The translations under genes and the position numbers were made by a program. Below, piece by piece: positions 4,630 through 10,906 of a stretch of DNA of 24,369 nucleotides. The DNA comes from Deltaproteobacteria bacterium UBA2385 (GTDB taxonomy: Bacteria > Myxococcota_A > UBA796 > UBA2385), in the NCBI GenBank assembly GCA_002343455.1, contig DDSR01000254.1:1-24369 (forward strand), read 5' to 3'. Under the pieces are notes generated by a model that worked only from the letters and a program-made list of their open reading frames with translations, was not told the origin of the DNA and ran no database searches. Numbering within the stretch: the stretch's first letter is position 1; every line of letters starts with the position of its first letter.

Positions 4630-5115
4630 ATGAGCATTCTAAACCGCATCAAGCGAAAGCTCCCCGTGGTCGGCGGCTCAGCCCCTCCGCCGTCCTCCAC
4701 CCCTGGCGTGGCCTCGGCCCGCCCCCAGCCTGCGGCTCCGACCTGGAGCCCCCCCGAAGAAGAACAGGAGTCCAATGTGCGTGCCGGTCGTCCCGTCCCC
4801 GAGTTCCTCGCCGAGTTCGTCAAGAGCAGCCCCGTCGTCCTCTTCATGAAGGGCTCCCCGAACAACCCGATGTGCGGCTTCAGCGCCAACGCCGCCGGCA
4901 TCCTCCGCAACTACGACGTCGCCGTGGCGTCCTTCGACGTGCTCTCCGACGCGGCCGTCCGCGACGGGATCAAGCAGTTCAGCCAGTGGCCGACCATCCC
5001 GCAGGTCTATGTGGGCGGTGAGTTCATCGGCGGATCGGACATCCTGATGCAGATGCACCAGTCCGGCGAGCTGCGCGAGATGATCGACCAGGCCCGCTCC
5101 GCTCAGGGCGCCTGA
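4630..5115 (+). CDS. grxD: Monothiol glutaredoxin (Grx4/GrxD type, CGFS) with N-terminal extension
   Basis: This is a 161-residue protein whose residues about 52-158 match the monothiol glutaredoxin family, which binds glutathione-coordinated [2Fe-2S] clusters and delivers them to target proteins. The key features are K74 in the FMKGSP motif, the CGFS active site at 82-85, the WPTIPQVYV motif with the cis-proline, and the GGSDI motif that contacts glutathione. Normal Grx4 proteins have about 105-115 residues; here about 50 extra residues rich in Pro, Ser and Glu precede the domain, starting with the basic segment MSILNRIKRKLP. The start is the ATG at 4630, with GGAGG about 8 bases upstream. 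The gene is divergent from the PrsW gene, and its last 13 bases overlap the stop of the UvrA-like gene on the other strand. Function in Fe-S trafficking is by family; the extension's role is unknown. Confidence 0.93.
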   Translation: MSILNRIKRKLPVVGGSAPPPSSTPGVASARPQPAAPTWSPPEEEQESNVRAGRPVPEFLAEFVKSSPVVLFMKGSPNNPMCGFSANAAGILRNYDVAVASFDVLSDAAVRDGIKQFSQWPTIPQVYVGGEFIGGSDILMQMHQSGELREMIDQARSAQGA

Positions 5116-7445
5116 GCGTCGATGTCCAGGGCGTAGTCGGCCTGGGCCATCAGGATCGGATCGTGGGTGCTGGCCAGGATGGTCGCACCCCGGTCGGCCA
5201 GCTGCCGTAGGACCTGGGCGATGCGTGAGCCCTCTCGCGGGTGAAGTCCGGCCGTAGGCGCGTCCAGCAGGAAGATGCGCCCCGCCAGCGCCTGGCTGCG
5301 GTTGGCGTTGCCGCGAGCCAGCTCTCGGGCGAGGCGCAGCCGCTGGCGCTCGCCGCCGGAGAGGCTGCGGGTGGACTGCCCCAGGGGCAGGTGACCGAGT
5401 CCGACCGACTCGGCGGCGGCCAGGATCGGGCCCAGCACCCGATGCGCGCTGAAGAGCGCGGCGCAGCTCTGGAGGTCCAGGTCGAGCAGCTCGGGCAGCG
5501 TGCCCCCCTTGATGCGCACCCGCAGCAGCTCGGGGGTGAAACGACGGCCCTCGCAAGAGGGGCAGGGCTCGTCGGTGGCCTCCGCCAGCCCCTGCGCGTC
5601 CAGCCGGTCCTCTCGGCCCGCGTGGACCAGGCCGGAGCCCTCGCACTCCGGGCAGCGCCCACCCGGCCGGTCCAGGCGGAAGCTGGCCGCGTCGAACCCG
5701 GCCATGCGCGCCTGCCGGGTGGCGGCCAGCAGCTCCCGCAGGGGTGTCCAGGCTCCCAGCGAGGTGGCGACGATCGCGTGCGGGCTGCGGGTCGCGGTGC
5801 CCGCCTCGACCTGGAGGAGCTGCACGTCGCCGCCGAGGCCCTCCAGGGTGCTCAGGCCGGGGGGCAGGCCGGTCACGCCCGCCAGCCGCCCGGCGATGGC
5901 CGGGGCCAGGAGCTGGTGCAGCAGCCGGCTCTTGCCCGCTCCGGAGGGACCTCGCAGCACGCCCAGGCGGCCGGGCGGGAGGTGCAGCGGATCCAGGCCG
6001 AGGGCCTCCAGCGCGGGGCCTGACAGTCGCAGACCCTGCGGAGGGGGGGAGGGGAGGGCGGGCGCCTCGGGGACCGGGTCGAGCAGGCCGTCCGGCAGGT
6101 CGACGCCGGACCCCTGCCAGACCCGCGCGCCTCCGCTGCGCCCCGAGCCGGGCCCGAAGGCGATCAGCTGCCCGGCCCTCCGAGCCAGGGCGGGGTCGTG
6201 ATCGAGCACCAGCACGGCTCGACCTCGGTCGGTCCAGCGCCCCAGGCATGACCGCACCCGCTGCGCAGCGAGGGGGTCGAGGTGGGCGAAGACGTCGTCG
6301 AGGATCAGCAGCGAGCCGGGCAGCTCCAGCGCCCCTGAGCGGGCGAGGCGCGCGCGGGCCAGCTCGCCAGAGGAGAGATCGCGGGCAAGCCGGCTGAGCG
6401 GGAGGGTGCCCAGCCCGAGCTCGCCCGCCAGTCCGGCGCGGCGAAGGAACAGGGCCCGGGCGCCCTCCAGTCGGCTGGGCGGTGAGGTGCGCTCGACGAG
6501 CTCGGTCAGCTCGTGCAGGGGGCGATCGAGCAGGCGGGCCCAGCTCAGCTCGGGGTGCGACCAGAACAGCGACGCCTGGACGGAGGCGCCACCGGGCCCG
6601 GGCAGCAGGTCGGCGGCCCGGATCCGGCGATGCGGGATGCCCGGATGCTGAGGGCACCAGGGTCGGTCGGACCAGCTGCGCTCCTGGGCATGGCCCGAGG
6701 GTTCGCCCGAGGGTTCGCCCGAGGGACCAGAGCGCTCGACCAGCAGGGTGCCGGCGCCCGCGGCCAGCGCGGTGCCGACGGCGTCCTCCAGCCGCTCTCG
6801 CTGGTCGGGGCCGACCCTCAGGCGGTCGATCACCAGGTCCAGATCGTGCGGAAGCCGGGCGTCGATCGACGGCAGGTCCTCCAGGCTGAAGGTCTGCCCG
6901 TCCAGGCGGACCCGCGAGAAACCCTGGCGGCGCACTTCGTCGAGCAGGCCGGCCAGGCCCTGGGTGCGCTGGCGCGCCAGCGGGGCCATCAGCGCGAGTC
7001 GGCTGCCGACCGGCAGGGCGCTGAGCTCGTCGACCATCGCCGCGGGGCTGTGGACGGGCAGGGCCCGGCCGCACTCGGGGCAGTGGGCCTGGACCCGGCT
7101 GAGGCCCACCGCGGCCAGCGGCGCGGCGAGGTCCAGCAGGTCGCCGAGGCAGCCTTCGCCTCGGACCGGCTCTGGCCCCAGGTAGAGGCAGAGGGGCAGC
7201 CCCTCGATCAGCTCGACCTGGGCTCCGGCCAGCGCCCGGGCGGCCTGCTCTTCAGCGCGGGCCTCACCGATGACCGCGGCGATCGTCCGGCGCGAGGCGG
7301 CGTGGATGGTGTCCCTGGCCAGCGACGACTTGCCCGACCCGCTGGGGCCGATGAAGGCGATCAGCCCGTCCAGGTGCAGATCGAGATCGATGCCGCGCAG
7401 GTTGTGGGTCCGCGCCCCGCGGATTCGAAGGAGGGCTCCGGCCAC
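5103..7445 (-). CDS. UvrA-like tandem ABC ATPase, shortened, with altered Walker B residues
   Basis: This is a 780-residue paralogue of UvrA, the damage-recognition ATPase of nucleotide excision repair; true UvrA has about 940 residues. Two nucleotide-binding domains are visible: NBD1 has Walker A GPSGSGKS at 33-40 and signature DLSSGE; NBD2 has Walker A GPSGAGKS near 500 and signature SLSGGERQR. A UvrA-type zinc module is present (C598, C601, C628, C631); the first zinc module is reduced to C122/C125. The catalytic glutamate after Walker B is missing in both halves: NBD1 reads LILDDVF (D383-D384) and NBD2 reads FLLDAPTAGLH (D728-A729). The start is inferred as the GTG at 7445, with GGAG just upstream and homology starting at once (LLRIRGARTHNLRGI); the frame continues to 7802 but the divergent gene occupies that DNA. 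It is more likely a specialised UvrA relative than the housekeeping uvrA. Confidence 0.85.
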   Translation of the reverse strand: MAGALLRIRGARTHNLRGIDLDLHLDGLIAFIGPSGSGKSSLARDTIHAASRRTIAAVIGEARAEEQAARALAGAQVELIEGLPLCLYLGPEPVRGEGCLGDLLDLAAPLAAVGLSRVQAHCPECGRALPVHSPAAMVDELSALPVGSRLALMAPLARQRTQGLAGLLDEVRRQGFSRVRLDGQTFSLEDLPSIDARLPHDLDLVIDRLRVGPDQRERLEDAVGTALAAGAGTLLVERSGPSGEPSGEPSGHAQERSWSDRPWCPQHPGIPHRRIRAADLLPGPGGASVQASLFWSHPELSWARLLDRPLHELTELVERTSPPSRLEGARALFLRRAGLAGELGLGTLPLSRLARDLSSGELARARLARSGALELPGSLLILDDVFAHLDPLAAQRVRSCLGRWTDRGRAVLVLDHDPALARRAGQLIAFGPGSGRSGGARVWQGSGVDLPDGLLDPVPEAPALPSPPPQGLRLSGPALEALGLDPLHLPPGRLGVLRGPSGAGKSRLLHQLLAPAIAGRLAGVTGLPPGLSTLEGLGGDVQLLQVEAGTATRSPHAIVATSLGAWTPLRELLAATRQARMAGFDAASFRLDRPGGRCPECEGSGLVHAGREDRLDAQGLAEATDEPCPSCEGRRFTPELLRVRIKGGTLPELLDLDLQSCAALFSAHRVLGPILAAAESVGLGHLPLGQSTRSLSGGERQRLRLARELARGNANRSQALAGRIFLLDAPTAGLHPREGSRIAQVLRQLADRGATILASTHDPILMAQADYALDIDAQAP
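6694..6725. repeat. 12-bp tandem repeat inside the UvrA-like gene
   Basis: The 12-base unit CCCGAGGGTTCG occurs two full times and a third time in part. On the coding (minus) strand it gives a Gly-Glu-Pro-Ser repeat within a flexible segment of NBD1, about residues 240-250. It is in frame and probably arose by slippage. Confidence 0.8.
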
Positions 7446-7538
7446 CAGGTCTCCAGCGCCCGCCCTATGCCAACGGAGCCGGCCCGGCGAGGCCCCAGCC
7501 CCCCCCGCTGTTTCCGGATAATGCGCCCTGCCCCAACG

Positions 7539-9794
7539 ATGGGAGCGACCGTGCTGTTGCTGACCTTCCTCACCGGCGCAGGGCTCCTGCTCGCTGGCTT
7601 CCTCGGCTACGAACAGGTCCTGGTCCAGCACGGGGCGCAGCCCGGCGCCTGGTGCGTCGCGGAGGAGGCCTGCGCTGCGGCGATGCGGTCGCCGGGCGCG
7701 AGCCTGTCGGGCGTGCCGATCCCGGTCTGGTCGATGCCGCTGCTGGTGGTGGTGGCGGCGCTCCTGCCGGGTGCCCGGGGTAGCAGCCCTCGCGCCCTGC
7801 ACGCCCGCGGGGGCATCCTCACCGTGGCGGCGCTGCTGGCGCTCCTGGGGGCGCTCTCGGTGGCCCTCACCCCCTCGCTCCTGCGCTGCCCTCCGCTGCT
7901 GCTGCTGGGTGTGCTGGTCCTGGGCCTCCTCGCCCAGTCGGCCCGGCTCAGCGCCGGTCGACCCGCCGTGCCGCAGGTCGAGGACTGGCTCCCGGCCCTG
8001 CTGGTCGGCCTGACCGTGCTGATGGGCGCAGGCTTCGCGGCTCGAATCCTGGACTTCCGGCTGACCCAGCAGGAGGAGAGGGCTCGCACCGAGCCCGCCC
8101 TGACCCTGCCCGCGGGCGCGCCCCTGGTGATGGAGCGGGTCTCGGCCGGCCGGGTGGCCGTCCCTCCCGTTCGCTCACCCGCGCCGATCGACGACCAGGA
8201 TCCCTGGATCGGGGATCGAGACGCAGCGGTCACCGCGGTCGTCTTCCTGGACCTGCTGGACCCGGCCTCCCGCGACCTCGCCTGGGTCCTCTCCGTGCTG
8301 GAGCCTCGATACGAGGACCGGGTCCGCTTCGTGACCAAGCACCTGCCCATGGACGCGAGCTGTAACGAGAAGCGGCGTCGGACGCAGCACCCGCGCGGCT
8401 GTGAGGTCGCGGTGGCGCTGCAGTGCGCCCATGCCCAGCGCGGCTTCCGGGGGATGAGGCAGGCGATCCTCCGTGACCCGGGGGCGGTCGAGGACGAGGA
8501 CCTCCGGAACCAGGCGGCGCGCTTGGGGCTCGACCTGGAGCAGTTCAACGCCTGCCTCTCCAGCAAGGAGGCGCTGCAGTCGGTCGAGGCGGATGTGGAG
8601 CAGGCGGGCAAGGGCAGCCTGGTGGATCCACCCTGGCTCTTCGTCGAGGGCCGCGTCCTGAGCGCCGGGGCCAGCGAGGCCGAGGTGGACGCCTTGCTGG
8701 CCGTGGCGCTGGGCGAGCGCCCCCTCGGGGAGGACGGCATGGCGGAGGCGTTCGTCGATCGGCCGGCATCCTCGCCGGTCCCCGAAGGTGCGGCGCCCAT
8801 GGTGGCGGTCCCCGGCCACTCCGGGCTGTGGATCGACGCCGTCGAGGCCGCGCTCCAGGGCGAGGGAGGCGCCGTCGCGCGCTTCGGGGTGGCACCCTGG
8901 CCGGCGGACCTGGACCAGGCGCGGGGAGCCTGCGCGGCGGCCGGAAAGCGCCTCTGCACCCGCGCGGAGTGGGTGAGCGCCTGCCAGGGGGCGGCCCCGA
9001 TCGACGACGACGGCGACGGCGACGCCTTCGACGATCTCTCCGAGGGGCGCACCTGGCCGTACGGCGACGGCCCCTCCCCGGGATGGTGCGCCTCGCAGCT
9101 CCCGATCGATCCGACGGGCGCCCGCTCGGCCTGTCGGACCCCCGAAGGGGCCTACGACCTGGCCGGCAACATGGCGGAGTGGGTCGAGGAGGGGATCCTG
9201 CTGGGCGGCAGCTCGGGAGAGGCCGGGCTGGCCCGCCGAGGCTGCGCCGCCGTCCAGGAGGTGCCGGGCCCAGGCTGGAGGGCCCAGACCACCGGCTTTC
9301 GCTGCTGCGCAGGCGAGGCCCGGGTCGAAGGGGAGGCCCGGGTCGAAGGGGAGGGGACACCACCGCTGGCGTCCCCGCCGGTCCTGCCGGTGTCGACGCT
9401 GCCCGACTCGCTCCGGGGAGGTCCGGCGGCGCCCGGGGAGACCCAGCCGGTCCTGGTGGTGGCCTGGTCGACCGAGTGCGCGGCCTGCCAGGTGGGGCTG
9501 CGGGTGGCCGAAGAGGTCGCGAGGGTCGGCGCGGAGTCCGGAGGCCGCTCGCTGCGCGTCGTCGCCCTCTCGGTCCAGGCCGACAGCGAGGGCGCCCAGA
9601 AGTGGCTGGACCTCTCGGGCCTGAAGGTCGAGCCCCTCGCCGACCCCGAGGCCCGCCTCGCAGGCCAGCTCGGCATCGCCTCCCTGCCCTGGATGGGGCT
9701 CTACGACGCCCAAGGCGCCTTGCTCGACGACTGGAGCGAGCCTCCGACCGCCGAGGCCGTCCGGGCGGCCCTCTCGGCCGCTCCGGCCCGCTGA
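7539..9794 (+). CDS. Membrane redox fusion: VKOR-like + DsbA-like + FGE/SUMF1-like + TlpA-like thioredoxin
   Basis: This is a single uninterrupted frame of 751 residues. Residues 1-170 are a VKOR-like membrane domain with the loop pair C39/C45 (CX5C) and the SPGASLSGVPIPVW motif, but the CXXC site reads C117-P-P-L. Residues about 228-395 resemble a DsbA-like thioredoxin fold in which the CPxC site aligns with D241-P-A-S244. Residues about 420-590 are an FGE-sulfatase (SUMF1) domain (AGKRLCTRAEW, YDLAGNMAEW, TTGFRCC), with C569 at one active-site position and no obvious second cysteine. Residues about 620-750 are a TlpA/thioredoxin-like domain with C647-A-A-C650 and the cis-Pro motif SLPW at 716-718. 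The start is uncertain: ATG 7539 opens directly onto the first membrane helix, while ATG 7521 would add six residues; neither has a clear ribosome binding site. The soluble domains are probably extracytoplasmic. It probably acts in envelope thiol oxidation or reduction; substrate unknown. Confidence 0.85.
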   Translation: MGATVLLLTFLTGAGLLLAGFLGYEQVLVQHGAQPGAWCVAEEACAAAMRSPGASLSGVPIPVWSMPLLVVVAALLPGARGSSPRALHARGGILTVAALLALLGALSVALTPSLLRCPPLLLLGVLVLGLLAQSARLSAGRPAVPQVEDWLPALLVGLTVLMGAGFAARILDFRLTQQEERARTEPALTLPAGAPLVMERVSAGRVAVPPVRSPAPIDDQDPWIGDRDAAVTAVVFLDLLDPASRDLAWVLSVLEPRYEDRVRFVTKHLPMDASCNEKRRRTQHPRGCEVAVALQCAHAQRGFRGMRQAILRDPGAVEDEDLRNQAARLGLDLEQFNACLSSKEALQSVEADVEQAGKGSLVDPPWLFVEGRVLSAGASEAEVDALLAVALGERPLGEDGMAEAFVDRPASSPVPEGAAPMVAVPGHSGLWIDAVEAALQGEGGAVARFGVAPWPADLDQARGACAAAGKRLCTRAEWVSACQGAAPIDDDGDGDAFDDLSEGRTWPYGDGPSPGWCASQLPIDPTGARSACRTPEGAYDLAGNMAEWVEEGILLGGSSGEAGLARRGCAAVQEVPGPGWRAQTTGFRCCAGEARVEGEARVEGEGTPPLASPPVLPVSTLPDSLRGGPAAPGETQPVLVVAWSTECAACQVGLRVAEEVARVGAESGGRSLRVVALSVQADSEGAQKWLDLSGLKVEPLADPEARLAGQLGIASLPWMGLYDAQGALLDDWSEPPTAEAVRAALSAAPAR
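9315..9350. repeat. 18-bp tandem duplication in the FGE-thioredoxin linker
   Basis: Two exact copies of an 18-base unit (GAGGCCCGGGTCGAAGGG) lie head to tail and encode GEARVE repeated in frame at residues about 592-604. They fall at the junction between the FGE-like and thioredoxin-like domains, which supports this stretch being an unstructured linker. Confidence 0.85.
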
Positions 9795-9851
9795 GCCGCG
9801 CTCCGGCGCTGCTTGCCGCGGCCGCTGGACCTTCATAGGACCGCTGTCCGT

Positions 9852-9922
9852 TGGGGCGTCGACTAATGGCAAGTCACCGGTCTTTGGAACCGGCCATGTA
9901 GGTTCGATCCCTACCGCCCCAG
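9852..9922 (+). tRNA. tRNA-Gln (anticodon TTG)
   Basis: A 71-base cloverleaf folds by eye. The acceptor stem is TGGGGCG with CGCCCCA, the D stem GACT/AGTC, the anticodon stem CCGGT/ACCGG with loop CTTTGGA giving anticodon TTG for glutamine, and the T stem GTAGG/CCTAC with loop TTCGATC. The discriminator base is G. The following bases are CCC, so the CCA end is not encoded. It ends 39 bases before prs, with no clear promoter between, so co-transcription with prs is plausible. A glutamine tRNA before prs is a recurring arrangement in deltaproteobacterial lineages. Confidence 0.97.
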
Positions 9923-9961
9923 CCCCAGCCTGTCCGGCAACCTCCTCACCGGGAAGTCCCC

Positions 9962-10906
9962 ATGCGATCCGAGATCAAGCTCTTCACGGGGAACGCCAAC
10001 CCGCTGCTGGCCCACGCGATCGCCGACTACCTGGACCTCCAGCTCGGCCGGGCCCGGGTCGGCCGCTTCAGCGACGGCGAGATCAACGTCGAGATCGCCG
10101 ACAACGTGCGCGGCCGGGACGTCTACCTGGTGCAGTCCACCTGCGCTCCGACCAACGACCACCTGATGGAGCTGCTGATCCTGGGGGACGCCTGCAAGCG
10201 GGCCAGCGCGGGGCGGGTGACGGCGGTGGTCCCCTACTACGGGTACGCCCGCCAGGATCGCAAGGTGGCCCCCCGGGCGCCGATCAGCGCCAAGCTGGTG
10301 GCGGATCTGCTCTCGGCCTCGGGCATGGACCGGGTGCTGACGATGGAGCTCCACGCGGGGCAGATCCAGGGCTTCTTCAACATCCCGGTCGACAACCTCT
10401 ACAGCAACGCCTGCCTCAGCAGCTTCCTCGAGCGGGAGCTCCCGCTGGACAAGCCGGTGCTCGTCTCCCCCGACGCCGGGGGTGTCGAGCGGGCGCGGGC
10501 CTTCGCCAAGCGGCTGGGGGCGGGGCTGGCGATCATCGACAAGCGTCGCAGCGGGCCCAACGTTGCGGAGGTGATGAACCTGATCGGCGAAGTGGACGGC
10601 ATGACCGCCGTGCTGGTGGACGATATGATCGACACCGCCGGGACCCTCTGCGGGGCGGCTGCCGCGGTCAAGGAGCAAGGCGCGGTCAAGGTCTTCGCCG
10701 TGGCCACCCACCCGGTCCTGTCGGGGCCGGCGGTCGAGCGCATCAAGGCCAGCGTGATCGAGAAGGTGGTCGTCACGGACACCATCCCGCTCAGCGCGGC
10801 GGCGGTGGCCTCGGGCAAGTTCCACGTCGTCAGCGTGGCCAGCCTGTTCGGCGAGGCCATCCGGGCCATCCACCACGACGACTCGGTCAGCCGACTCTTC
10901 CTCTGA
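9962..10906 (+). CDS. prs: Ribose-phosphate pyrophosphokinase (PRPP synthetase)
   Basis: This is a 314-residue class I PRPP synthetase, which makes 5-phosphoribosyl-1-pyrophosphate from ribose-5-phosphate and ATP for purine, pyrimidine, NAD, histidine and tryptophan synthesis. The length matches the family. Visible motifs are FSDGEINVEI near 36, the ATP-site segment GYARQDRK at 94-101, the ELHAGQIQGFF motif with H131, and the ribose-phosphate binding loop VLVDDMIDTAGT at 217-228. The ATG at 9962 is preceded by GGGAAG. It sits just after tRNA-Gln and before rplY. A 7-bp hairpin follows its stop. Confidence 0.98.
   Translation: MRSEIKLFTGNANPLLAHAIADYLDLQLGRARVGRFSDGEINVEIADNVRGRDVYLVQSTCAPTNDHLMELLILGDACKRASAGRVTAVVPYYGYARQDRKVAPRAPISAKLVADLLSASGMDRVLTMELHAGQIQGFFNIPVDNLYSNACLSSFLERELPLDKPVLVSPDAGGVERARAFAKRLGAGLAIIDKRRSGPNVAEVMNLIGEVDGMTAVLVDDMIDTAGTLCGAAAAVKEQGAVKVFAVATHPVLSGPAVERIKASVIEKVVVTDTIPLSAAAVASGKFHVVSVASLFGEAIRAIHHDDSVSRLFL

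Follow-up and report, generated by a model that had tools for sequence, protein, structure and literature searches.

VKOR-thioredoxin and VKOR-DsbA fusions occur in bacteria and plants, and the VKOR-thioredoxin fusions are known as oxidases. They share an N-terminal VKOR part, a fifth helix and a thioredoxin-fold domain with the protein analysed here, which differs in adding FGE-like and TlpA-like domains and in belonging to a clade that has lost catalytic cysteines. The FGE-like domain has the fold of SUMF2, CalU17, TvpA, PvdO and the Major Tropism Determinant, all FGE-fold proteins that are not formylglycine-generating enzymes (FGEs), but it is distinguished from these by eight conserved cysteines and by its location inside a thiol-redox protein. 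The TlpA part shares its fold and CxxC motif with the TlpA/ResA/DsbE (CcmG) thioredoxins; unlike them, it is joined to a membrane part plus two domains without catalytic function, and the tryptophan preceding the CxxC has been lost in its clade. A redox-inactive thioredoxin fold without CxxC beside a catalytic one is also the arrangement of the PDI b domains, whereas the present case is bacterial and DsbA-type, carries a fixed DxxS motif and occupies a genomic slot that an intact relative also fills. A search of the open-access literature by title and start of abstract, with most subscription journals outside its scope, gave no paper among the hits listed that describes the four-domain architecture or its disarmed form.

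Domain organisation and relatives

The gene occupies positions 7539..9794 of the plus strand of the window (the whole stretch of 24,369 nucleotides that was analysed) and encodes a protein of 751 residues, identified from its open reading frame, Pfam matches and homology. The preliminary description had proposed that VKOR, DsbA, FGE and TlpA parts follow one another in a single frame, and this order was seen in Pfam, in profile comparison and in predicted structures; it also recurs in relatives with the same four domains. The four-domain fusion in a single Myxococcota membrane protein is confirmed as real. An assembly join or frameshift was ruled out because other independent proteins, and open frames from other genomes, have the identical order; homology across nearly the full length ruled out a chance open frame in GC-rich DNA. 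An NCBIfam search of the window protein gave matches only far under the cut-offs.

A protein database search provided 20 related proteins. A scan of genome contigs gave 320 relatives, from which the best 80 were kept; the weaker ones mostly match the FGE part only. Matches at E ≤ 1e-30 were present in 19 of the 58 genomes searched, including the window's own. The set of 52 non-redundant rows comprises the window protein, 19 of the 20 database proteins (without P0021) and 48 loci (29 of the best 80 from the contig scan and 19 from the genome search), minus 16 near-copies; the weaker loci L036-L086 (51) and L155-L159 fall outside the motif counts. Two architectures were found among the homologues, one with four domains and one with VKOR-DsbA-FGE without TlpA. 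Active sites were compared across 46 rows (12 from the window clade, 19 four-domain and 15 three-domain), the other six (L016, L018, L024, L031, L033 and L103) being fragments or near-copies. In a 47-row tree, from which five fragments were excluded, the 12 rows of the window clade form one side of a branch with 100/100 support, as do the 15 rows of the three-domain group.

Genomes are assigned for three of the 12 clade rows, namely the window protein (G000), P0006 (G001) and P0012 (G002, partial), and the remaining nine are on unplaced contigs. P0012 is labelled ‘Oligoflexia bacterium’, yet it is a near-copy of a protein (L088) from G002, which belongs to the window's own genus. Contigs L042 and L047, titled as a Klebsiella pneumoniae MAG, carry this Myxococcota kind of FGE-like domain and are probably mislabelled bins.

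Active sites of the four domains

The VKOR-like membrane domain spans residues 1–137 (7539..7949, plus strand), as delimited by Pfam and motif comparison. Its match to the VKOR family (PF07884) scored 24.4 bits against a cut-off of 27.5 in one search and 28.6 in another; in profile-profile comparison, this part matched the intact four-domain relatives at 99.0% and canonical VKORs directly at 8.7%. Three of the four catalytic cysteines are kept (C39, C45 and C117), and Leu120 replaces the second cysteine of the CxxC. The predicted model contains five long N-terminal helices, the fifth of which (residues 147–184; 7977..8090, plus strand), supported by hydropathy, leads into the part taken as periplasmic. 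In a structure search with the whole model, the rows shown were filled by the DsbA domain, with no VKOR chain among them. Within the window clade, all four VKOR cysteines are retained in P0004, P0005, P0009 and P0011, and at least one is missing in the other 8 of the 12 rows.

The DsbA-like domain (residues 209–395; 8163..8723, plus strand) was assigned by Pfam and structure search. It has the thioredoxin fold with a helical insert and keeps C275, C288, C296 and C339, but its active-site cysteines are lost: DPAS (residues 241–244; 8259..8270, plus strand) stands at the position of the relatives' CxxC. This change to DxxS is fixed in all 12 window-clade rows, whereas all 34 rows outside the clade have an intact DsbA CxxC and both VKOR cysteine pairs. 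Pro365 aligns with the proline of the cis-proline loop, a position given by sequence alignment rather than by observed cis geometry, and the residue preceding it has changed from threonine to proline in the window clade. According to PMC13269488, substituting the cis-proline abolishes turnover; the window protein differs from that substitution in keeping the proline and altering its neighbour.

Besides the active-site positions, the DsbA-like domain has four cysteines and the FGE-like domain eight; all twelve are present in 46 of 46 rows. Mean pairwise identity within the window clade is 0.653 for the DsbA-like, 0.600 for the FGE-like, 0.462 for the TlpA and 0.350 for the VKOR domain, and 58 of 177 columns of the DsbA-like domain are invariant. 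Because it is the best-conserved domain of the clade (0.653 against 0.350 for VKOR), the disarmed DsbA-like domain is, judged from these alignments, under constraint, and such strong conservation argues against simple decay.

The FGE/SUMF1-like domain (residues 416–592; 8784..9314, plus strand) was delimited by profile alignment and fold, and structure comparison confirmed the FGE fold. In the PDB, the domain profile matches SUMF2 best by sequence (E 1.1e-12); SUMF2 is a non-catalytic paralogue and inactive as an FGE. Human FGE, as described in PMC4505483, has an active site formed by Cys336 and Cys341 and structural disulfides 346-235 and 365-218. When a 28-row profile was compared with SUMF1 in HMM alignments, the single cysteine following GG aligned with Cys346. 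C465, C589, C482 and C569 match the SUMF1 cysteines of disulfides 218-365 and 235-346 and are kept in 46 of 46 rows; the corresponding disulfides in the FGE-like domain are predicted from these aligned cysteines. A catalytic pair of the Cys336/Cys341 type is absent from all 52 rows, each of which has one cysteine in this segment. Because this pair is missing, FGE activity would not be expected in any member examined. The window's genome (G000) contains 26 FGE-family and 28 sulfatase-family matches, so a true FGE function, if present, more likely resides elsewhere; the best FGE-family match in the genome scores 159.3 bits, against 24.6 for the window protein.

The TlpA/DsbE-like domain (residues 616–750; 9384..9788, plus strand), found by Pfam and structure search, adopts the thioredoxin fold and carries CAAC (residues 647–650; 9477..9488, plus strand), which motif comparison identifies as the sole complete one of the three active-site CxxC motifs. 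Its match to the Pfam AhpC-TSA family, at 16.6 bits against 26 (P0001), is under the cut-off that the intact relatives P0013 and P0016 pass. The CxxC is retained in all 11 window-clade rows with a C-terminus (P0012 ends earlier) and in all 19 four-domain rows outside the clade; 14 of 91 compared columns of this domain are invariant within the clade. The three-domain group encodes a TlpA-type thioredoxin with WCxxC as the immediate upstream neighbour of the VKOR-DsbA-FGE gene, in the same orientation, at each of the 12 loci whose sequence extends that far. This comparison covered 14 three-domain loci, two of which begin inside the gene, and P0018-P0020 were outside it. Measured from the end of the upstream frame to the first aligned base of the VKOR-DsbA-FGE gene, rather than to its start codon, the gap is 3 to 173 nt.

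Fusion in one group and adjacency in another are classical evidence that parts work together, and VKOR-DsbA-FGE with TlpA looks like a conserved functional unit. The functional link between the four parts suggested in the preliminary description therefore gains support from fusion and from adjacency in 12 of 12 loci. The evidence does not support the biochemistry proposed there, in which a thiol relay is coupled to an FGE, since the catalytic pair is missing from the FGE-like domain and the relay is broken at Leu120 and at Asp241/Ser244. One DsbD_TM-family (CcdA/DsbD-type) match was found in the genome, which is about 88% complete. Near the gene, at window positions 4692-5115 (plus strand), lies a monothiol glutaredoxin-like protein with CGFS, named by recognition from its translation.

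A conserved genomic slot

The gene is flanked in the window on one side by a UvrA-like ATPase gene (5103..7490, minus strand, start approximate) and on the other by tRNA-Gln (ttg; 9851..9925, plus strand, found by scan), which is followed by prs (ribose-phosphate pyrophosphokinase; 9962..10906, plus strand); both protein-coding flanks were named by recognition. The same flanks surround the copies in genus-mate G001 (L007), G008 (L008) and G006 (L009), and the UvrA-like gene adjoins those of G004 (L010) and G002 (L088). L185 contains a 34-residue match (E 5.9e-4) ahead of tRNA-Gln and prs, and probably holds the end of the G004 gene. The tRNA-Gln was present in 7 of 7 slot loci scanned. The window's UvrA-like ATPase is 36–47% identical to its counterparts in the slot, against 70–89% for prs, a fast-evolving UvrA relative beside a housekeeping cluster.

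Slot copies with all catalytic cysteines were found in G004 (3' end cut), G006 and G008, and disarmed copies in G000, G001 and G002, which all belong to one genus (g1). A second genus of the same family, g2 (G003 and G009), has slot relatives of 519 and 530 residues, lengths that rest on starts chosen in the analysis. These relatives, L183 (1411-3948, minus strand) and L184 (1293-2966, minus strand), lack the VKOR catalytic cysteines, the DsbA CxxC and the TlpA domain, and each keeps 12 of 12 other cysteines in an open frame. In G007 the slot is empty, with the UvrA-like gene within about 100 bp of tRNA-Gln and then prs; a search of G005 gave no prs match. Separately from the slot, a canonical VKOR is present in all ten family genomes, with DsbA attached in nine of them, while the G002 piece stops short of the DsbA part; in the window's genome this canonical fusion is L002/L153. 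Three genomes carry, besides the canonical VKOR-DsbA, an extra VKOR-family protein whose divergent thioredoxin-like part has CPSC (L172 in G003, L174 in G001 and L177 in G008).

Because intact, disarmed and redox-free copies occupy the same slot, disarming appears to have happened inside orthologous loci, and the window gene is, on sequence and gene order, the positional orthologue of a putative intact Myxococcota disulfide machine. In the gene tree, the g1 copies join those of g2 with support of 83/91 (not starred); the alternative grouping of g2 with L009 and P0015 was not rejected (p 0.146). In the flank-gene tree, g2 pairs with G006, whose copy is intact, with support of 94/99 (not starred). 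A topology holding the window clade together with L008, L009, L010, P0013, P0014 and P0015 was likewise not rejected (p 0.256). The disarmed state may thus have had one or two origins.

Possible roles of the intact and disarmed proteins

We give a probability of about 0.5 to the reading that the window protein is a membrane-anchored TlpA-type thiol reductase or isomerase with two non-catalytic, probably client-binding domains; this activity is predicted. In its favour count the pattern of lost and retained cysteines, the constraint on the DsbA-like domain, the slot shared with intact copies, the TlpA fusion and adjacency, the separate canonical VKOR of the family genomes and the DsbD_TM-family match. 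The roles of VKOR and DsbA are established for the families, and we infer how all the parts are combined. In intact members, VKOR would oxidise DsbA with quinone, DsbA would in turn oxidise a client that the FGE-fold module holds, and reduction or proof-reading would fall to TlpA. Only the TlpA step could remain in the window protein. Its VKOR part would now be a membrane anchor, the pseudo-DsbA and FGE-like domains would bind thiol- or disulfide-containing clients without chemistry, and the TlpA domain would reduce or reshuffle client disulfides; its likely electron source is the genome's DsbD_TM-family protein, which would probably keep it reduced. Several points count against this reading. 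The gene can be maintained without redox chemistry: in g2, the slot relative has also lost TlpA and still has an open frame and the 12 other cysteines. Also, the window-clade TlpA domain is without the tryptophan and has few invariant columns, and that of the window protein scores below the Pfam cut-off. In addition, genomes are assigned for no more than three of the 12 clade rows.

The same g2 copies, which keep 12 of 12 other cysteines without catalytic cysteines or TlpA, would suit a redox-independent, membrane-anchored binding or scaffold protein in which a pseudo-DsbA stabilised by disulfides is joined to an FGE fold resembling C-type lectins, with TlpA as a dispensable remnant. The FGE fold is common to non-enzyme binding proteins such as the Major Tropism Determinant and TvpA. 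We nevertheless regard this explanation as doubtful, given that the TlpA CxxC is retained in every clade member with a C-terminus and that a very long branch leads to the g2 copies, which may be special. A decaying gene with no present role after loss of the oxidase would fit the poorly conserved VKOR domain, the degenerate g2 copies and the empty slot in G007. Such a vestige is improbable in view of the open frames found in the window as well as in L007 and L088, the predicted proteins of 619–768 residues that make up the rest of the clade, the conservation of the DsbA-like domain, the fixed DxxS and TlpA CxxC, and a coding-like GC content by codon position.

A direct transfer of disulfides from VKOR to TlpA, skipping the dead DsbA, is conceivable for the four clade members that combine all four VKOR cysteines with the TlpA CxxC. 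The second CxxC cysteine of VKOR is missing from the window protein, however, and 8 of the 12 clade members miss at least one, which limits a short circuit to some relatives or an ancestor and makes it a poor candidate overall. Least credible is an active FGE fed electrons by the attached thiol relay. The FGE fold and the genome's 28 sulfatase-family matches speak for it, but none of the 52 rows has the catalytic pair, the window protein's relay is broken and a far stronger FGE-family match exists elsewhere in the genome. In PMC4505483, moreover, the specific activity of human FGE was unchanged after strong reductant treatment. For such proteins, ‘FGE-sulfatase’ matches do not warrant annotation as formylglycine-generating enzymes.

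Beyond our preferred reading of the window protein, we tentatively propose, at less than even odds, a Myxococcota unit of TlpA and VKOR-DsbA-FGE-fold that occurs as a four-domain protein or a two-gene cassette, in which the FGE fold would serve as an integral receptor for clients. At least one genus would have turned it into a pseudo-oxidoreductase whose DxxS-locked DsbA may still capture clients for the attached thiol reductase. A single locus shows the unit in intact, disarmed, redox-free and absent states. The same machine is found in one slot either intact, with its oxidase half disarmed, or with no active-site cysteine, the other cysteines remaining fixed throughout. This natural series makes it possible to study the contribution of non-catalytic parts to disulfide machines.
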